NCBI RefSeq assembly: GCF_000425645.1
Contig: NZ_KE384430.1
Location: 1,351,492-1,415,491 of the forward strand
Reading direction: 5' to 3'
Length of the DNA stretch: 64,000 nucleotides
DNA from: Gaetbulibacter saemankumensis DSM 17032
GTDB taxonomy: Bacteria > Bacteroidota > Bacteroidia > Flavobacteriales > Flavobacteriaceae
Within the stretch, counting starts at the first letter, position 1; the number at the start of each line of letters is the position of its first letter. Both the position numbers and the translations under genes were made by a program. Shown here piece after piece: positions 23,164-33,037 of this stretch. The notes beneath the pieces were generated by a model that had not been told where the DNA came from, searched no databases, and was given only the letters and a program-made list of their open reading frames with translations.

Positions 23164-25611
23164 ATGGGATTGTTAATATTTGTTTTAGATAGATTTCGTG
23201 GAATAATATGCCATAATCTTTTGTGGGTAATATTTGTGGTTTTGTTTATAAATATTGAGATGTTAGGGCAAAACTATTTAACAACAATAGATTATGTCTT
23301 CGCTAGTGAATACTCTATTGATTCCATTAATAATTTACAACAAGGTACTAGAGCTTTCTTTTTGGAAATAGTTAAGAATCAATCTCATTATACCGTTTTA
23401 AATTCAAAAGAAAAGAGCTCTTTAAAATCAGTTTTAGACACTCTTCAGAATTTTTTAAATGATAACAAGGACGAGGTTGTTGCTATTGTTTTAAGAGGTG
23501 ATTTAGATAAAACTCAATTAATGCATGATCTAAGTTTTGAGTATTCCAATGATGTTTTTTTTGTAACTGAAAATAAGGATGTTAATATTGAGAAACTAAA
23601 GGAAATTGATAAACGATTAATTGTAGTTTTTAATCAAGATCTAACTGAATCTTCAATTGGACGAATTCAAAAGAAAAGAAAATATTTGGATAGATTCACT
23701 GTAAATCCGTTAGATAAATTTGTAGTTTTTAAGAGCAATGCGACATCGGACAGCTTATTATTTAGAGAGGTTTTTGAGTTTTGGAAAACTACAGGGAAAT
23801 CTCCAAATTTCATTTTGGCCGATCATATAAAAACTGAAAGAATAAAACACGTAGCCGACTCTTTGAATAGAACAAGACGCTTTCGAGGGGTTATGAGGTA
23901 TGGAGGAGAGCTTCTAAATGAAATTTACTGGAATAATTTACCAAATGTTATTACTTCAGCCAAGTTTTCATTTCCATTAACAACAAATCAACAAGTCCTT
24001 GCGCCATATAAAAATGGATTTAGAATTACACCCGCAGAAATGATTCATCACACAGGGCAATCAGATGCTCCAAGAATGTTTCTGGCTTATAATGTATCCA
24101 TAGAAGATGAACTGAAATACGATTTTTCTTTTGATAATGATGTTGTAAATACGCAGGAAAAAGATTGGGATAGAGTTATTAAAAAGGATATTTCTTTTAT
24201 AGAAGATGATAATCGCGGTTCGGTTTTATATTTAAATAAAGAAGATTCATTTATAGATTATTTTAAAGCGAATAATTTAAATTTTGAAACACCAATAAGT
24301 ATTTCGGTTTGGCTTAAGCCTGAAAAGCATACTTCATATATGGGGATCTTAGGGTTTGGATTAGCATTTTCGGTAAAGCTGAAAAAAGGTAATCCGGATT
24401 TTACTATGGCTACCATAAAGGATCATGTTGTAGCTCATCCGCTTGAAGTGGGAGTGTGGCAACATTTAGTGATTGTTTATAATCCTAGAGCTTCAATAGT
24501 GTTTTATCTAAATGGAGATAAAATTGGTGATGTGGAGGCATTGGATATTAATCCATCAGAGAAATCTCTTGTGGTAGGGAATAATATTTGGGGTGAGCAG
24601 TTTTTTGGGGCTATAGATGACTTAAAAGTTTGGAATCGTGGTTTAGCTCCGAATGAAGTAAAGCTATTATTTACGGATAATTCATCCAATAGAAGTTTTA
24701 ATTTTATCGGAATTTCATTAGGAATTGGAGGGCTTGTTGTTTTGGGAATGCTAGTTTTGATTTACAGAAATAAATCAAGGACAAACAAAAGAATAAAGTT
24801 TTTAAAAACGAAATCAGCAGCGTATAAATTAAACCAAGAACAGAAACAGGTAAAGCAAAATAAGCTTTGTCTGTTTGGAAATTTTTACTTGGAATTAAAG
24901 AATACTGAGGCTCCTTCTTTTTCACCACTCCATAAACAAATAATGTCTTTTTTAATTCTTTCTATGCTTGAAGATAGTACAGGGGTGACAACAAATAAGT
25001 TAACCGAAACGTTTTGGCCGGGAGTATCCAAAGCGAAGGCAAAAGAAAACCGAAGTGGTAACATACGTAAATTACGAATGGTATTATCTAAAGTTGAGGG
25101 AATTGAAGTGGTTTTCAATGAAAATAAATGGAGTGTTGTATATGATGATTCTTTTCAGATAGATGTTTTTGAATATTTACGTTTAAGGTCTATTTTGGAA
25201 ATTGGGTTATCAAAAGATGATGTGTCTATAGGTGATTTGGAAATATTTCTTGAATTAATTAAAAAGGGGAATGTTTTACAAAGTATCCATAACGAATGGA
25301 TTGACTATTTTAAGGCTAAGTTATCAAATGAAATTGAAAGTTTATTAACGGAAATATATGCTAGACAAGCTAATAATTTACCTAAAGAATTGTGCATTAT
25401 AATAGGAAAAACGATTCTTTTATTTGATAGTTTGAATGAAAATGCCTTGCAAATTTTAGTACGTGAGTGGATTTCTTTAGGAAAACATGGACTCGCCCAA
25501 GACGCCTATTTAACTTTTTCTAAAAATTATGAATTACTTTACGGAGAACTATATATGGTGGAATATCAGGATTTTATAAAAGAAATTGCACTTGATAAAA
25601 AAATATTTTAG
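23164..25611 (+). CDS. transmembrane regulator: PI-PLC-like + LamG outside, SARP/BTAD-like DNA-binding inside
   Basis: An 815-residue protein with an unusual order of parts. Residues 18-34 are a hydrophobic signal/anchor. Residues about 39-290 resemble a PI-PLC X-type barrel (QGTRAFFLEIV, LQNFLNDNKDEVVAIVLRGD, IDKRLIVVFNQD, SPNFILADHI) but the first catalytic His of the THNSY motif is not present. Residues about 310-505 fit a LamG jellyroll (ISVWLKPEKHTSYMGILGFG, GAIDDLKVWNRGL). A membrane helix follows at 512-534 (IGGLVVLGMLVLIY). Residues 567-662 are a winged-helix with SARP features (LCLFGNFYLELKN, TFWPGVSKAKAKENRSGNI, LRMVLSKVEGIE) and 663-815 a BTAD-like helical domain. It looks like a one-protein sensor-regulator. 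The ATG at 23164 is preferred over a TTG two codons earlier. A GH109-type gene follows. Confidence 0.8.
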   Translation: MGLLIFVLDRFRGIICHNLLWVIFVVLFINIEMLGQNYLTTIDYVFASEYSIDSINNLQQGTRAFFLEIVKNQSHYTVLNSKEKSSLKSVLDTLQNFLNDNKDEVVAIVLRGDLDKTQLMHDLSFEYSNDVFFVTENKDVNIEKLKEIDKRLIVVFNQDLTESSIGRIQKKRKYLDRFTVNPLDKFVVFKSNATSDSLLFREVFEFWKTTGKSPNFILADHIKTERIKHVADSLNRTRRFRGVMRYGGELLNEIYWNNLPNVITSAKFSFPLTTNQQVLAPYKNGFRITPAEMIHHTGQSDAPRMFLAYNVSIEDELKYDFSFDNDVVNTQEKDWDRVIKKDISFIEDDNRGSVLYLNKEDSFIDYFKANNLNFETPISISVWLKPEKHTSYMGILGFGLAFSVKLKKGNPDFTMATIKDHVVAHPLEVGVWQHLVIVYNPRASIVFYLNGDKIGDVEALDINPSEKSLVVGNNIWGEQFFGAIDDLKVWNRGLAPNEVKLLFTDNSSNRSFNFIGISLGIGGLVVLGMLVLIYRNKSRTNKRIKFLKTKSAAYKLNQEQKQVKQNKLCLFGNFYLELKNTEAPSFSPLHKQIMSFLILSMLEDSTGVTTNKLTETFWPGVSKAKAKENRSGNIRKLRMVLSKVEGIEVVFNENKWSVVYDDSFQIDVFEYLRLRSILEIGLSKDDVSIGDLEIFLELIKKGNVLQSIHNEWIDYFKAKLSNEIESLLTEIYARQANNLPKELCIIIGKTILLFDSLNENALQILVREWISLGKHGLAQDAYLTFSKNYELLYGELYMVEYQDFIKEIALDKKIF

Positions 25612-25623
25612 TCAAAAAATAAA

Positions 25624-25659
25624 TTTGTTCACCCATTTGCTCACCTATTTGTGCGGTTA
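25624..25659 (+). promoter_or_regulatory. three 12-bp direct repeats, candidate operator
   Basis: TTTGTTCACCCA (25624-25635), TTTGCTCACCTA (25636-25647) and TTTGTGCGGTTA (25648-25659) stand head to tail. The first two agree at 10 of 12 positions; the third shares mainly the TTTG start. They lie between the SARP-like regulator gene and the GH109 gene, 40 to 75 bases ahead of its ATG. SARP regulators are known to bind direct repeats near a helical turn apart, so this may be the site of the upstream regulator; that is inference. Confidence 0.45.
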
Positions 25660-25698
25660 TGGTATGTATATTTAGGGCATAATTAAAAATAAAAGCAT

Positions 25699-27096
25699 AT
25701 GAGTACTAATAGAAGGGATTTTTTAAAAAAATCATCAATGGCTGGAGTAGGTTTAGCATTTTTACCTAACCTTTTAAATGCAGATAATAAAGAGACCTTT
25801 AATGCATTTAAAGAAAATTATATGGGAGGTTTTGCAGCTCCTAAATTAGATGTTGTACGGTGTGCTGTTATAGGAGTTGGAGCACGAGGTTCTGGTCATG
25901 CTAGACAATTAGCAACTATAGAAGGTACTGAAATGGTTGCAATTTGTGATTTATATGAAGATCTGGCGAAAAAATCAGCAGATAAGTGTAAAGCAATTGG
26001 AGCAGGACAACGCCATAAGGATGTGAAAACTTTTTTTGGAGGTGAAGATGAGTGGAAAAAGATGTTGGACACTGTTAAACCAGATATGGTTGTTATTGCT
26101 ACACCATGGAGTATGCATGCACCAATGGCGATTCAATCCATGGAGTCTGGAGCTCATGCCTTTGTAGAGGTGCCTATAGCAGTAACCATAAATGAAATGT
26201 GGGATATTGTGAAAACAGCCGAGAAAACACAAAAGCACTGTATGATGATGGAAAATGTGAATTATGGACGCGAAGAGTTGTTATACCTAAATATGTGTAG
26301 ACAAGGTGTTATAGGCGAATTGCTTCATGGTGAAGCAGCATATATTCATGAATTACGAGGACAGATGAATCAAGCCGATCGTGGTACAGGCTCTTGGAGG
26401 ACATATGAGTATGCCAGAAGAAATGGTAATTTATATCCAACACATGGGTTAGGACCTGTTGCGCAGTATATGAATTTAGCCAGAGGAGAAGATAACTTCG
26501 AGCGTATTAATTCATTTTCATCTCCTTCAAAGGGAAGGGATTTGTATGCTAAGAAGCATTTCGATAATAATCATAAATGGAATCAATTAGATTTCATAGG
26601 TGGAGATATCAATACCTCTATTATTAAAACAAGTTTAGGACGTACCATTATGGTACAATGGGATGAAACTAGTCCAAGACCATATTCAAGACATAACTTA
26701 ATTCAAGGAACTAATGGAACATTAGCAGGGTTCCCAACACGAATTGCTTTAGAGGGAGGTGTTGAAGGTGTAACCGATAATCATCATCAATGGGCTCAGG
26801 GTGATGGATTGGATGCTATTTATGAAAAATATGAGCATCCGTTATATAAACGTTTAGGTGAAGTTTCTCAGAAAATGGGAGGTCACGGAGGAATGGATTT
26901 CATGATGCTTTATCGTATTGTGGAATGTCTACTTAAAGGTCAGCCATTGGACCAAAATGTTTATGAAGGTTGTTTTTGGAGTGCTGTAGGTCCATTGAGC
27001 GAAGCTTCAGTGAAGTCACATGGAGACTCTCAGAGGTTCCCAGATTTTACTCGTGGCGAATGGAAAACAACTAAACCTTTAGATATTGTTGAGTAA
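25699..27096 (+). CDS. GH109-type alpha-N-acetylgalactosaminidase / Gfo-Idh-MocA family, Tat-exported
   Basis: A 465-residue protein with a twin-arginine signal (NRRDFLKKSSMAGVGLAFLP). Residues about 50-170 form the NAD-binding Rossmann fold (VRCAVIGVGARGSGHARQL), then the Gfo/Idh/MocA C-terminal domain. NGNLYPTHGLGPVAQYMNLA and HNLIQGTNGTLAGFP are close to the GH109 enzyme of Elizabethkingia, which hydrolyses alpha-N-acetylgalactosamine by an NAD-dependent oxidation-elimination route. A simple oxidoreductase is the alternative. It should be folded with its cofactor in the cytoplasm and moved to the periplasm. It follows the regulator gene by 87 bases. Confidence 0.87.
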   Translation: MSTNRRDFLKKSSMAGVGLAFLPNLLNADNKETFNAFKENYMGGFAAPKLDVVRCAVIGVGARGSGHARQLATIEGTEMVAICDLYEDLAKKSADKCKAIGAGQRHKDVKTFFGGEDEWKKMLDTVKPDMVVIATPWSMHAPMAIQSMESGAHAFVEVPIAVTINEMWDIVKTAEKTQKHCMMMENVNYGREELLYLNMCRQGVIGELLHGEAAYIHELRGQMNQADRGTGSWRTYEYARRNGNLYPTHGLGPVAQYMNLARGEDNFERINSFSSPSKGRDLYAKKHFDNNHKWNQLDFIGGDINTSIIKTSLGRTIMVQWDETSPRPYSRHNLIQGTNGTLAGFPTRIALEGGVEGVTDNHHQWAQGDGLDAIYEKYEHPLYKRLGEVSQKMGGHGGMDFMMLYRIVECLLKGQPLDQNVYEGCFWSAVGPLSEASVKSHGDSQRFPDFTRGEWKTTKPLDIVE

Positions 27097-27128: not shown

Positions 27129-27181
27129 AATAATTCTGAAAGAGTTTAAAATAATGAATAACTTTTTCAGAATTATTTTTT
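27129..27181. terminator. bidirectional terminator
   Basis: The arm at 27129-27146 (AATAATTCTGAAAGAGTT) pairs over 18 bases, with one G-U, with 27160-27177. T's follow. The stem covers the stop codon of the convergent ABC ATPase gene. Confidence 0.88.
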
Positions 27182-27967
27182 TACTCTAAAACTACCAGTT
27201 TTTTCGTCGAAAGCAATTAAATCTTTAGGAAACAGATTTTCGAAATGCCCATTGGAAATTAAATTACAAGGCTCATCTGAAACGACCTGGCTCTCGGTCA
27301 TCACAATCATTTTATCACATAATTGAATTGCTAAGTCGATTTCATGTGAAGAGAACAGGATGGTTTTATTGGTTTCCTTAGCCAATTTTTGTAATAATTT
27401 TAAAATATAAGCTTTGTGATACATATCCAGATGTGTGGTAGGCTCATCCAGAATAATTAAGTCAGTATCTTGAGATAAGGCTCTTGCAATCATGACTTTT
27501 TGAAGTTGCCCATCGCTTAATTCAAAGCATTTTTTGTCTTTCAAAGATTCGATATTAATCAGTCGTATGGCCCTATAAACCATATCGATATCTGTTTTTG
27601 AAAAACTTCCTAGCCAATTGGTGTAGGGCTGTCTACCTAAAGCAATAAGCTCAAAAACCGTTAAATTTTTAGAGATAAGTTTTTCGGTTAACACCAAACT
27701 TAAAGTTTTTGCTAAATCGAGAGCATTCTGTTTTTCTAAAGGAATACTATTAATAAAAACTTGACCTTTTATAGGGTCTTGTACTTTGGTGAGAGTTCGA
27801 AGCAGTGTCGATTTACCTATACCATTAGCACCAACCAATCCTACTAATTCGCCTTGCCCTAGCTTAATATTAATATCAGAGGCAATAATAGTTTGTTCTT
27901 TTTTAGATGTATAACCAATACTTAAATTTTCGGTGTTTAAAACGATATGTTTGTTTGTAACTTCCAT
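27173..27967 (-). CDS. ABC transporter ATP-binding protein, FecE/BtuD family (corrinoid or siderophore uptake)
   Basis: A 264-residue ATPase with Walker A GANGIGKSTLLRTL, the signature LSDGQLQKVMIAR and Walker B LIILDEPTTHLD. It powers import by the permease encoded just upstream. The ATG at 27965-27967 overlaps the permease stop by one base (TAATG), so translation is coupled; a start 12 codons earlier inside the permease is less likely. Family membership is the siderophore/haem/B12 group. The B12 assignment rests on the adjacent cobalamin riboswitch-controlled receptor, not on the protein itself. It is the last gene of a three-gene operon. Confidence 0.93.
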   Translation of the reverse strand: MEVTNKHIVLNTENLSIGYTSKKEQTIIASDINIKLGQGELVGLVGANGIGKSTLLRTLTKVQDPIKGQVFINSIPLEKQNALDLAKTLSLVLTEKLISKNLTVFELIALGRQPYTNWLGSFSKTDIDMVYRAIRLINIESLKDKKCFELSDGQLQKVMIARALSQDTDLIILDEPTTHLDMYHKAYILKLLQKLAKETNKTILFSSHEIDLAIQLCDKMIVMTESQVVSDEPCNLISNGHFENLFPKDLIAFDEKTGSFRVKK

Positions 27968-28995
27968 TAGAACATCATTTTTCGTTTTCTTACTAATAAC
28001 CAAATAACAACAGGTGCGCCTATTAATGAGGTAATAGCATTTATAGGTAGGGTGTAATCACTAGATGGTAATTGGGCAATGCTATCACAAATGAGCATAA
28101 TTATAGCGCCAAGTAGAAATACAGCTGGTAATAAAATTTTGTGATTTGAAGTATGAAACAATTGTCTGGTAATATGTGGAATGGCTAATCCAATAAAAGC
28201 GATGGGGCCTACAAAGGCCGTAATTGTTCCAGCCAGTAAACTGGTAGATATTATAATAATTAAACGGCTTTTTTTAATGTTGAGACCTAAACTTTTAGCA
28301 TAGTTTTCACCAAGTAGCAAGGAATTTAGGCTCTTTATAGTGCCCAAACTTAGTATAATTCCGAAACTATATATTATAAATAAAATGAAGAGTTCCTGCC
28401 ATGATAAACTACCTAAACTTCCGAAGCCCCAAAACACAAATTGTTGTAATTCTTCGGCTGAACTAAAATAAGAAAGCACGCTAACTACGGCTGCAGAAAT
28501 GCTTCCAAACATAAGACCAATAATTAAGATAGCCATAGCATCTCGAACCTTTGTGGAAACAATAAGTACGGTTAGTAAAACTAAGAAACTACCCAAGGTA
28601 GCGGCGATAACCAAAGTCCATTTTGTCGTAAACATGACTAATAAAATACCACTAAAAAGTGAAGCGCCTAAGGTAACAATAGCCACACCTAAACTGGCTC
28701 CAGAAGTAATGCCTAGTACAAAGGGACCTGCCAATGGATTTCGAAATAAGGTTTGCATCATTAGTCCTGAAATGCCTAAACCTGAACCCACAATCATAGC
28801 AGTAAATGCTTTTGGTAAGCGATAATCTACGATAATATATTTCAAAGACGTGTTTTCCGTCGATCCAAACAAGGTGTTAAAAATATCACTTTTAGGAATA
28901 GAAACAGAGCCAAGGCTAATATTTACAAAAAAGCACAGGATAAGCAGGATGCCCAGAGCTATTAAAGTGACCGTATATTTATTTTGATATTGCAA
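27967..28995 (-). CDS. ABC transporter permease, FecCD/BtuC family
   Basis: A 342-residue permease with about ten membrane helices. DYRLPKAFTAMIVGSGLGIS, QTLFRNPLAGPFVLGITSGA and FVGPIAFIGLAIPHITRQLF are the family hallmarks, the last being near the ATPase-coupling loop. It forms the channel of a type II importer for corrinoids or siderophores. The start appears to be TTG at 28993-28995, placed directly after the stop codon of the binding protein; no ATG is available before the first helix. It overlaps the ATPase gene downstream. Confidence 0.93.
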   Translation of the reverse strand: MQYQNKYTVTLIALGILLILCFFVNISLGSVSIPKSDIFNTLFGSTENTSLKYIIVDYRLPKAFTAMIVGSGLGISGLMMQTLFRNPLAGPFVLGITSGASLGVAIVTLGASLFSGILLVMFTTKWTLVIAATLGSFLVLLTVLIVSTKVRDAMAILIIGLMFGSISAAVVSVLSYFSSAEELQQFVFWGFGSLGSLSWQELFILFIIYSFGIILSLGTIKSLNSLLLGENYAKSLGLNIKKSRLIIIISTSLLAGTITAFVGPIAFIGLAIPHITRQLFHTSNHKILLPAVFLLGAIIMLICDSIAQLPSSDYTLPINAITSLIGAPVVIWLLVRKRKMMF

Positions 28996-30135
28996 TTATT
29001 CTAATCGTTTAAAAAAGAAGTTCGTATAATTTGGTAATACTTCAGGGTGGGCAATGTTAATAATGTCTTTTAAAATGTAATCGGGTCTTAATGGACCTAA
29101 CTCATAAAAAAGCAATCCACCTTCAGATCCCATTTTATTCGTGTAAGTGTAAATGTTGTTGTTCTTGAAGGCAGTAAAATAACCATATCCTTTATGTTGA
29201 GAAAGCATGTGCCTTTTACTTTCGTAGGATCCGGCACCTATCCATAAATCTGCAGTTTGCCCTTTCTCTAACATATTTTCAAGATTTAATTGTAGACTTC
29301 CGGTCGAACTATCGTCTTTCCAAATATAATTGGTCCTGGCATCTTTAAAATATTGCGCTATAAAACTATTTCCTCCGGGTACATGCCAGACATCTTTAAA
29401 CATGGAACCCGATAATACCGTGGGGTGCTTTTTTGTTTTTAAAGCTAATTGTTTGGCGTTATTGTAGTTGGATTCTATCTCATTGAAAATGCTATCAGCT
29501 ATGTCATTTTTATCAAAAAAAGCGGCAATAAATTTAATCCATTCTGCACGACCAAGCGGATGCTGTTCTGTCCAGGAACCATCTAGTACAACCGGAATAT
29601 TGAATTTTTCAATTTGATTTAAAGACTTATTATTGCCATTAACTGTATAGCCAATAATTAGATCTGGTTTTAAATCAAGTAGAACTTCCATATTCATTTC
29701 CAGGTCGTTGTTTAAATCTCTGATGTCGCCTTGTTCAATTCTGGATCTTGTTTTTTCTGAAGAGATATATTTAGTACCAGGAAACCCTACCAGTTTGTTA
29801 TCCACACTAAGATATTCTAATGCAGGAATATTTGTGGTGGACATAACTACGAGGTTTTTTATAGGGTGCTTGATAATGACACTACCTTCTTGGTTTTCTT
29901 TGAAATATAGTTTGCTTGTAGGTTTAATATATCGAAATGTATCAGTGCTTTTCGGCCAGGGAGACGTGACAATGATTTCTTTATGATTCTCATAATAGTT
30001 AATAGAAAATCCAGTAGCATATTTAATGTTTTCCGACCTTAATATTTTCGATTCTAATGCACTATGTTCCTTTTTTGACTCTCTACAAGACATAAAAAAG
30101 AGTAGACTAATTGAAAATAAAACAATACGATGCAT
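28996..30135 (-). CDS. ABC transporter substrate-binding lipoprotein, BtuF/FecB-like
   Basis: A 379-residue lipoprotein (lipobox FFMSC, residue 17) with the class III solute-binding fold: VVMSTTNIPALEYL, then VDNKLVGFPGTKYIS, NMEVLLDLKPDLIIGYTVNG and GSWTEQHPLGRAEWIKF. It delivers a corrinoid or a siderophore to the permease. The first gene of the ABC operon; divergent from the Dph6-like gene at 30221 with an 85-base gap. No riboswitch is visible ahead of it, unlike the receptor gene at 31190. Vitamin B12 as cargo is inferred from this neighbourhood. Confidence 0.88.
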   Translation of the reverse strand: MHRIVLFSISLLFFMSCRESKKEHSALESKILRSENIKYATGFSINYYENHKEIIVTSPWPKSTDTFRYIKPTSKLYFKENQEGSVIIKHPIKNLVVMSTTNIPALEYLSVDNKLVGFPGTKYISSEKTRSRIEQGDIRDLNNDLEMNMEVLLDLKPDLIIGYTVNGNNKSLNQIEKFNIPVVLDGSWTEQHPLGRAEWIKFIAAFFDKNDIADSIFNEIESNYNNAKQLALKTKKHPTVLSGSMFKDVWHVPGGNSFIAQYFKDARTNYIWKDDSSTGSLQLNLENMLEKGQTADLWIGAGSYESKRHMLSQHKGYGYFTAFKNNNIYTYTNKMGSEGGLLFYELGPLRPDYILKDIINIAHPEVLPNYTNFFFKRLE

Positions 30136-30933: not shown

Positions 30934-30942
30934 CAGCGAATT

Positions 30943-31108
30943 TAGGTTCTAATCGGTTTTAAATCGAAAGGATTAAAAGGGAATCTGGTGGAAATCCAGA
31001 GCTGTTCCCGCAACTGTAAGCTATAAAGCTTCATGTAACACTTCTAGTCACTGAAGAATATTCTTTGGGAAGACCAACATGAAGACGCAAGTCAGGAGAC
31101 CTGCCAAA
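30943..31108 (+). promoter_or_regulatory. cobalamin riboswitch
   Basis: The conserved core GCTGTTCCCGCAACTGTAA lies at 31001-31019, preceded by GGAATCTGGTG and AAATCCAG that form the P3-P4 arm, and followed by the B12 box GCAAGTCAGGAGACCTGCC at 31087-31105. This is a complete adenosylcobalamin-type aptamer by pattern. It should repress the TonB receptor gene when B12 is plentiful, most likely by hiding the ribosome binding region, since no T-run terminator is seen between 31108 and 31190. Ends are approximate. Confidence 0.95.
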
Positions 31109-31189
31109 TTCAAACAAATTAAGTTAAACTTTCGGGATAAAAGTTTGCGTATGATAAACCATACGATTCCGATTTATTATTCATTAGAA

Positions 31190-33037
31190 ATGAAAAAAAG
31201 AACAAGAGTATTAGGTATTCTATGCTTAGGAGTATCATTATTTGGATTTTCTCAAGAGAAAAGCGAAGTAAAACTGGAAGAGTTAGATGAAGTTGTAATA
31301 ACGGATTCCAGATTTGAATTAAAACGTGAAAATTCAGGGAAAACTGTTATTAACATCTCTCGCGAAGAGATAGAAAAAAACCAAGGACGAACGGTTGCCG
31401 ATTTAATTAATACAAAATCAGGTATTGAAATCAATGGTAGTAGAAGTAATGCCGGACAAAATCTGGGTACTTATGTTCGTGGAGGTAACAATCGTCAAGT
31501 ATTAGTTATTATTGATGGAGTACAGATGGCTGATCCGTCATTTATAAGTGGTGATTACGATTTACGATTATTAAATTTAAGTCAAATTGAATCTATCGAA
31601 ATTATAAAAGGTGCTTCAAGTACACTTTATGGAAGTGGTGCGGCAACGGCAGTTATCAGTATCAGAACAAAAAAGGCAAGTTCCGAAAAAATCAGTGGAA
31701 CCTTTGCTTCAAGTCTAGGAACAAATCAAACACAGGACGATCAAAAATATAATATTTCCGATTTTCATAATAATGTTGCTTTTGGTGGAACATTAGAAAA
31801 GTTTACTTACAGAGCCGGGTTTAGTCAACAGTTTACTAATGGGATGTCTGCGCTGGTTGGTACAGACGAAAAAGATCCGTTTTCAAAATACGGTTTAGAT
31901 GTTAATTTAGGGTATGCTTTTTCAAAGACGTTTACTTTAAATGTATTTGCTAATTCCATTAATATCGAATCTGGTTATGATGATAGTTTTGGGATGATCG
32001 ATACAGATGACGAATTTATTTCAAAACAAGATCGTATAGGGTTGTCATCAAAATTTAACTATAATCAAGGAAGCATTAATTTAAATGCGGCTTATACAGA
32101 ATTTGATAGGGAGTATATATCAAGTTTTCCTTCAGAATCAAAATCTAAAAGTTTAGTATTCGATATATATAATAAGTATGTTTTTAATGAAACATTTTAT
32201 ACGATTATAGGGGTGAATGCTATTGAAAATAGAGTTGATTTTGATGAGGTAGAGAGTTATACCAATATTGACCCATACATCAATGCGGTATATGTGTCGG
32301 ATTTCGGATTAAATATAAATGCCGGAGCTAGGTTAAACAATCATAGTGAATATGGTAACCATGTAATTTATAACGTAAACCCTTCGTATGTTATGAAATA
32401 CGATAATGGTTCATACAGTAAAATATTTGGTTCTTATGCAACATCTTTTATTACACCTTCGTTAACTCAGTTATTCGGGCGATGGGGACCAAATCCAGAT
32501 TTAAAACCTGAAGATGACCGAACCATAGAGGGTGGTATTGAGTTTAAAGCTTCAAAACAATTAAGAGTTTCAGGACTTTATTTTAATAGAGAAGAAGAGA
32601 ATTATATTGCATATAGCTGGCAATCTGGTTATTATAATGCTGAGGATGTCGTAAAAACGCATGGGGTAGAAGTAGAGTTGACGTCTAGACCTATTGAAGC
32701 TTTGAGTTTAACAGCGAATTATACGTTTACTGAAAATAAAAATGCCCCGGCGCTTAGAATACCTAAGCATAAGGCCAATGCTGTAATTGGTTATGATTTT
32801 TCAGATAAAATGTATGCATCCATTGCTTATCAATATACCGATAAAAGATTGGATACGGGCGAAGTGACTTTAGATGCTTTTAATGTATTTAATTTTTATT
32901 GGAGCCATACAGCCATAAAAAACAAGATGAAATTCTTCGTAGGTTTAGATAATATTTTAAATGAAGATTATCTGGAGTTAAACGGATTTAATACTAGAGG
33001 TAGAAACGCTAAATTAGGTTTTCAATTAACCTTATAG
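31190..33037 (+). CDS. btuB: TonB-dependent receptor, BtuB-like (cobalamin uptake)
   Basis: A 615-residue outer-membrane receptor. A signal peptide ends at FGFSQ (residue about 22), then a TonB box-like LDEVVITDSRFE, and the plug domain (GRTVADLINTKSGIEINGSR, LLNLSQIESIEIIKGASSTL YGSGAATAVI across residues 90-160). The barrel ends at NAKLGFQLTL. Cobalamin as cargo is supported by the riboswitch directly upstream. The start is the ATG at 31190; longer starts begin inside the riboswitch itself. Flanked by two Dph6-like genes and near the BtuFCD-like operon. Confidence 0.93.
   Translation: MKKRTRVLGILCLGVSLFGFSQEKSEVKLEELDEVVITDSRFELKRENSGKTVINISREEIEKNQGRTVADLINTKSGIEINGSRSNAGQNLGTYVRGGNNRQVLVIIDGVQMADPSFISGDYDLRLLNLSQIESIEIIKGASSTLYGSGAATAVISIRTKKASSEKISGTFASSLGTNQTQDDQKYNISDFHNNVAFGGTLEKFTYRAGFSQQFTNGMSALVGTDEKDPFSKYGLDVNLGYAFSKTFTLNVFANSINIESGYDDSFGMIDTDDEFISKQDRIGLSSKFNYNQGSINLNAAYTEFDREYISSFPSESKSKSLVFDIYNKYVFNETFYTIIGVNAIENRVDFDEVESYTNIDPYINAVYVSDFGLNINAGARLNNHSEYGNHVIYNVNPSYVMKYDNGSYSKIFGSYATSFITPSLTQLFGRWGPNPDLKPEDDRTIEGGIEFKASKQLRVSGLYFNREEENYIAYSWQSGYYNAEDVVKTHGVEVELTSRPIEALSLTANYTFTENKNAPALRIPKHKANAVIGYDFSDKMYASIAYQYTDKRLDTGEVTLDAFNVFNFYWSHTAIKNKMKFFVGLDNILNEDYLELNGFNTRGRNAKLGFQLTL

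Follow-up and report, generated by a model that had tools for sequence, protein, structure and literature searches.

A predicted transmembrane one-component regulator with SARP-type output domains and a PI-PLC-like barrel, encoded next to a GH109-type gene in Gaetbulibacter saemankumensis

Bacterial regulators with a SARP-type output unit are known from the cytoplasm, and the present locus raises the question of whether such a unit may also form the inside half of a membrane sensor and, if so, which gene it would control. The analyzed stretch of 64,000 nucleotides (the window) harbours a single frame at 23164-25611 (+) which is open throughout and encodes 815 amino acids (the regulator); an in-frame TTG is located 6 bp upstream, and the opposite strand contains stops throughout and no open frame. 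From the N- to the C-terminus, the polypeptide comprises a signal peptide, a TIM barrel of the PI-PLC fold, a LamG domain, one membrane helix, an OmpR-type winged helix and a BTAD domain, assigned as follows:

23164..23271 (+), directly preceding 23272: signal peptide, residues 1-36 (hydrophobic at 13-31; AQ/GQ-N junction kept in relatives)
23272..23913 (+): PI-PLC-fold TIM barrel with lost catalytic histidines, residues 37-250 (fold, Foldseek and profile matches; Pfam in relatives)
23914..24174 (+): conserved beta segment before LamG, residues 251-337 (alignment)
24175..24681 (+): LamG/ConA-like jelly roll, residues 338-506 (PF13385; fold match to AbnA domain 4)
24706..24771 (+): single membrane helix, residues 515-536 (AlphaFold helix; hydropathy and charge in the family)
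24859..25146 (+): OmpR/SARP-type winged helix, residues 566-661 (AfsR match; Trans_reg_C in 4 of 39 relatives; strand-helix order)
25153..25578 (+): all-helical BTAD-like domain, residues 664-805 (BTAD in 12 of 39 relatives; helices of the model)

Domain architecture, topology and relatives

The order of domains in one polypeptide had been read from the sequence before, and is confirmed by profiles, folds and the topology signature. In an AlphaFold model built with 15 sequences (mean pLDDT 79.9), strands and helices alternate at residues 46-246; a beta-rich stretch then leads to the jelly roll, and a helix at 515-536 is succeeded by the winged helix (566-660) and by further helices up to the C-terminus. 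The juxtamembrane stretch 535-562 has very low pLDDT. Residues 251-337 were matched to no known domain; according to the alignment, they contain a PxKxGY motif common to the LamG branch.

The hydropathy peak at residues 515-533 coincides with the modelled helix and agrees with the original prediction of a membrane helix at about 512-534; many lysine and arginine residues are located on its C-terminal side. Nearly all family members share (i) a hydrophobic N-terminal stretch, (ii) a single, strongly hydrophobic segment separating the sensor from the winged helix, and (iii) generally several K/R after this segment. Of the signal or anchor formerly assigned to the N-terminus, the signal stands, whereas the anchor does not: since the A/G-Q-N junction is conserved in relatives, a cleaved signal peptide is most likely, with cleavage probably occurring between GQ and N. 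The signal peptide, the one helix and the K/R-rich stretch predict the C-terminus to reside in the cytoplasm, this charge pattern arguing against a topology with the C-terminus outside.

Screening of the regulator alone against Pfam retrieved LamG as the sole domain (PF13385, Laminin_G_3, residues 366-500, E=1.4e-17) and did not detect the barrel. The jelly roll also matched AbnA domain 4 in a fold search of the model (Z 21.6-22.0), which places the previously named LamG domain in the LamG/ConA-like superfamily. Many further rows of the fold search were receptor-binding domains of clostridial toxins, which share the ConA-like fold and do not point to a toxin function. The NCBIfam model TafC covers the LamG part alone, scoring 42.7 bits where the cut-off is 410, and was not taken as an identity; PADLOC gave no match.

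Evidence for the barrel, also part of the original prediction, comes from relatives, profiles and structure. Pfam searches of relatives matched PI-PLC-X (up to 2e-4) and an MTC6-type TIM barrel (1.6e-5), and a barrel profile compiled without any structure had Listeria PI-PLC (2plc, E=0.012) as best PDB match. As fold searches with the whole model were filled by the jelly roll alone, the barrel was folded (pLDDT 85.6, pTM 0.84) and searched separately, upon which 14 of 14 Foldseek matches under E 1e-3 were PI-PLC or PLC; the top Z against PI-PLC was 12.7 (186 aligned, rmsd 3.2). No catalytic histidine is present after strand 1 (VFASE in the regulator), and the second position is N in the profile alignment to 2plc. 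Thus, the first catalytic His is lacking as formerly noted, but the loss is not restricted to it; both positions are substituted in nearly all relatives. Since PI-PLC enzymes require two catalytic histidines and both are absent here, the protein is not filed as a PI-PLC enzyme, and the barrel is most likely a binding domain. It shares the TIM-barrel fold with the bacterial PI-PLCs (Listeria, Bacillus, Streptomyces), but, lacking their catalytic histidines, would serve as part of a sensor. A stepwise loss of the barrel is apparent in L040, L041, L042, L043, L049 and L074, the stretch before the common WxxxGK region decreasing from about 200 to about 140, 100, 40 and 2 residues; the LamG domain, the membrane helix and the SARP part are kept.

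For the C-terminal half, a profile of 15 C-termini had a single PDB match, AfsR, with E=0.56. A profile of 39 C-termini matched AfsR (8hvr, E=0.013) over positions 26-221, i.e., almost full length, in addition to generic TPR matches to the BTAD part. Pfam recognizes BTAD in 12 of these 39 family members (best 3.8e-4) and Trans_reg_C in four (best 3.2e-3), the regulator itself remaining below the cut-off for both; the Pfam BTAD model run over its own genome did not detect it either, the family profile being needed. The SARP layout, an OmpR-type winged helix directly followed by BTAD, is hence evident from the family profile, with the single protein under the Pfam cut-offs. Together with the order of strands and helices, these matches support the winged helix and BTAD-like domain originally proposed, and the C-terminal fold is related to OmpR/SARP just as the N-terminal half has profile matches to PI-PLC and LamG. 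Residues W74, T88, R92 and R94 of AfsR (chain numbers less a 20-residue tag, which was inferred from two AfsR constructs) align with W618, G632, K636 and R638 of the regulator. Across 40 sequences, W618 is invariant and R638 nearly so; of the six listed conserved SARP DNA contacts, W and R are kept in register and the others vary.

Five Flavobacteriaceae sequences including the regulator align over the full length, the other four being 49-59 % identical to it. Based on six sequences, a locus search across GTDB genomes retrieved full-length or nearly full-length relatives with the same domain order in 14 other genomes (loci L062-L075), as had been looked for: Snuella, Aestuariibaculum (two species), Aestuariivivens, Cellulophaga, Sediminicola, Splendidivirga, Labilibaculum, Sunxiuqinia and Puteibacter, as well as three other Bacteroidota MAGs and one Neomarinimicrobiota MAG. 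Among the genomes sampled, the output domain is encoded by 5 of 395 at the level of the class and by 23 of 299 within the family. The full-length architecture is sparse and patchy, since none of 30 genomes drawn as relatives contains a full-length copy. A second branch of the membrane SARP family (L055, L056, L059, L060, L061, L134, L136, L137) combines a LamG-like N-terminus with a Kelch propeller replacing the LamG core, and is encoded near SusC/D, sulfatase and beta-helix genes.

The downstream gene and its putative operator

Three features downstream of the regulator gene, all absent from the original prediction, suggest a target:

25627..25656 (+): direct repeats GTTCACCCATTT / GCTCACCTATTT / GTGCGG recurring every 12 bp, putative binding site (counterparts in 28 of 28 oxidoreductase-linked loci)
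25667..25675 (+): TATATTTAG, promoter element of the GH109 gene resembling the -7 element of Bacteroidota (position of TAnnTTT)
25699..27096 (+): gene proposed as the target, encoding a GH109-type Gfo/Idh/MocA oxidoreductase (glycosidase) exported via Tat (Pfam)

The product of the latter gene matches PF21252 (E=6e-56) and PF01408 (E=6.7e-17) and begins with a twin-arginine start (NRRDFLKK). A Gfo/Idh/MocA oxidoreductase gene is the next one on the same strand in 15 of 15 members (L062-L075 and the window), the 14 relatives spanning several Bacteroidota families and the Neomarinimicrobiota MAG, and the barrel-poor LamG paralogues of other clades (L038-L051) likewise have such a partner in 13 of 14 cases, L046 being the exception. 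Genes upstream of the regulator are not conserved beyond near relatives. Oxidoreductases were assigned by Pfam on sampled loci, the checked partners being of the GFO_IDH_MocA_C2 or C3 type; since the loci also hold genes for 3-keto-disaccharide hydrolases and GMC oxidoreductases, the clades of the family seem to regulate genes for exported proteins of sugar oxidation or glycoside cleavage. When the tree of the regulators was compared with that of the oxidoreductases, the Mantel r was 0.74, a value which can result from common descent alone and does not count as independent evidence. Known GH109 members are alpha-N-acetylgalactosaminidases, and therefore a GalNAc-bearing glycan or glycolipid may be put forward as a first guess for the ligand; the GH109 partner as such makes a glycan or glycolipid ligand more likely.

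Compared with the Snuella pair, the regulator is about 57 % and the oxidoreductase about 87 % identical, i.e., the regulator evolves far faster. L046 (6675-8978), the sole LamG paralogue of its clade without an adjoining Gfo/Idh/MocA gene, has also lost the repeats; a gene resembling 3-keto-hydrolases follows about 1.3 kb further on. Further downstream in the window, a cobalamin riboswitch (30937-31122, +; Rfam RF00174, 110.7 bits) precedes a gene (31079-33037) resembling, as judged by eye, a TonB-dependent receptor, and the genes at 27173-30135 similarly resemble a BtuFCD-type ABC importer; riboswitch, receptor and importer probably represent a vitamin B12 uptake block.

The gap between the regulator and GH109 genes (25612-25698) contains the repeats, which begin 15 bp after the regulator's own stop codon, and then TATATTTAG. 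Equivalent tandem repeats are present in all 28 oxidoreductase-linked loci, with the half-site consensus RTT-C/A-C/A-CC (RTTNCCC) occurring twice at 12 bp, plus a weaker third copy ending about 9 bp before the -7-like element. The motif TAnnTTT, which we take to be this element from the general Bacteroidota consensus, is located 21-22 bp past the second half-site in 15 of the 28 loci. In a de novo test for repeats (8-base window with at least 3 G/C, threshold 7/8, 200 shuffle runs), 25 of 28 intergenic regions reached at least 7/8 at a lag of 12 bp. In the shuffles, 0.67 regions did so on average and never more than 3, and at neighbouring lags the number was 0-3. The lag-12 repeat was found in none of 11 family loci without an oxidoreductase partner, and no 12-bp repeat of the RTTNCCC kind was found behind the tested loci of the Kelch branch. 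An action on DNA, as had been proposed, is thus supported by a conserved direct-repeat site before the next gene.

Allowing up to 3 mismatches, the site occurs once in the 3.09-Mb own genome, so that a broad regulon there was rejected, and in four relatives the best match is likewise located behind the regulator. Searching 299 Flavobacteriaceae genomes with the pattern of other clades yielded 15 matches, nine of them directly behind a family gene. Judged from these site counts, the regulator is probably local with one target operon.

T88 and R92 in the recognition helix of AfsR make contacts to bases. The residue equivalent to T88 (632) is G in exactly those seven loci with the half-site GTTCACC (base 5 = A), and A or T in loci with C as base 5. 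At the equivalent of R92 (636), loci with C as base 4 have K/R and those with A have E/N, one half-site of L068 being the exception; L075 was left out of this comparison. The half-site bases thus appear to change together with the residues equivalent to T88 and R92, although the changes fall on few branches and serve as supporting evidence only. The repeat of AfsR itself overlaps TTCAGC, which has a TTCA core in common with GTTCACC.

Proposed mode of action and alternatives

Taken together, the regulator is probably a transmembrane one-component activator of the adjacent GH109 gene, sensing its ligand via barrel and LamG. Outside the inner membrane, ligand sensing would fall to the non-catalytic PI-PLC-like barrel and the LamG domain; the ligand is most likely a glycan, glycoside or glycolipid that the exported enzyme of the GH109 type processes. 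Ligand binding may rearrange the chains across the single membrane helix such that two (perhaps three) SARP domains align side by side on the 12-bp repeats upstream of the GH109 promoter and help or recruit RNA polymerase there. As 15 bp separate the regulator's stop codon from the start of the site, the latter may be within reach of a factor which is tethered to the membrane and synthesised close by. We infer in this scheme the binding to the repeats, activation, ligand class, dimerisation and action without proteolytic release. Points against it are the 12-bp spacing, the Pfam scores below cut-off, the C-terminal position of the output unit, the variable contact residues, the few covariation events and L046.

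Some of these steps could be read differently. A ligand-triggered cut at or near the membrane helix, upon which the freed SARP half diffuses to the GH109 promoter, would suit the very low pLDDT at 535-562 as a protease site, and two half-sites demand two close SARP domains, which a soluble fragment may provide more easily. However, no protease gene was noted among the neighbours in the loci of the family, and transmembrane one-component regulators acting from the membrane are common according to a survey (PMC10269533), rendering regulated proteolysis rather unlikely. Site position and linkage would also suit a regulator which represses the GH109 gene and is released by its ligand. The repeats are, however, situated where SARPs activate, just upstream of the -10/-7 region, and the SARPs studied are activators; repression is therefore still less probable.

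Binding of the repeats by this protein being predicted, they might instead belong to another regulator of the oxidoreductase genes, with the protein merely encoded nearby, e.g., as a binding protein. This is very improbable, considering that most pattern matches (9 of 15) lie directly behind a family gene, that the repeats are missing behind members without an oxidoreductase partner, and that the half-site bases follow residues of the recognition helix. Hardly any weight is given to a barrel which is still an enzyme with altered chemistry, the protein both sensing and cleaving its ligand: the barrel is kept in the clade across several bacterial families, but both catalytic histidine positions are substituted in nearly all relatives, and paralogues sharing the LamG-membrane-SARP core have a shortened barrel or none. 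Extending the preferred reading of a membrane-bound activator, one may tentatively speculate on a new class of transmembrane SARPs which act from the membrane, with SARP domains placed side by side on 12-bp repeats, to turn on local genes for exported sugar oxidoreductases (GH109, 3-keto-glycoside type), a dead PI-PLC barrel in the present clade reading the head group of a glycolipid or phosphoglycan. In that case, a lipid-cleaving enzyme fold would have become part of a gene switch.

Relation to known regulators

The two-domain output unit of winged helix and BTAD is shared with the SARP family (AfsR, ActII-ORF4, RedD), AfsR being the sole natural transcription factor matched over nearly full length. 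SARP promoters have direct repeats at a spacing of 11 or 22 bp, the 3' repeat being located 8 bp from -10; the GH109 gene has tandem repeats in front of its -7-like element, but at 12 bp and with a weak third copy ending about 9 bp before that element. AfsR W74 and R94 are kept. In contrast, (i) the unit is N-terminal in known SARPs, but C-terminal in the regulator and tethered to the membrane under an extracytoplasmic sensor, (ii) the period is 12 bp instead of the 11 or 22 bp of Streptomyces, and (iii) SARPs are known from antibiotic genes of actinomycetes, whereas the regulator occurs outside actinomycetes and next to a glycosidase gene.

The regulator combines a DNA-binding domain and a membrane helix in one chain without a kinase, as is typical of transmembrane transcription regulators. 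Thus, it resembles the ToxR/CadC type with its outside sensor, membrane helix and inside DNA-binding domain; the winged helix of ToxR/CadC is, however, located at the N-terminus and that of the regulator at the C-terminus. The main text of the survey on transmembrane regulators (PMC10269533) mentions neither a BTAD nor a SARP unit, and a literature search covering mostly papers available without subscription found none on a membrane SARP, a LamG-SARP or a 12-bp operator. Hence, the combination of a one-component membrane regulator with SARP-type output does not seem to have been described before. The SARP output unit, known from cytoplasmic antibiotic regulators, would here form the inside half of a membrane sensor for which an operator and a single target are predicted and whose recognition code can be tested. 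Moreover, with a site starting so close behind the regulator's own stop codon, the question of how a membrane-tethered factor reaches its site becomes testable.

Among Bacteroidota, such a protein would add a glycan-linked type of regulator beside SusR, hybrid two-component and sigma/anti-sigma systems, and it links a set of loci for exported Gfo/Idh/MocA and 3-keto-glycoside enzymes, as yet unstudied, to a regulator that could help to find their substrates. Hybrid two-component systems likewise unite periplasmic glycan sensing and control of local sugar genes in a single polypeptide, but contain histidine kinase, receiver and AraC domains, none of which was detected in the regulator by Pfam. 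SusR of Bacteroides is a membrane regulator with a periplasmic sensor and a C-terminal DNA-binding domain without noted similarity to known ones (PMC3878776). A role in controlling sugar use, putative for the regulator, and predicted direct-repeat sites are further traits common to SusR, SusR-like proteins and the regulator, but the SusR sites are reported to be 67 or 77 bp apart (PMC3878776) as opposed to 12 bp here. The SusR-like BT2160 (SusR4) belongs to a cluster (BT2156-BT2160) with the 3-ketotrehalose hydrolase BT2157; judged by site spacing, it is probably not a relative, and the BT2160 cluster is a functional parallel with different site spacing.
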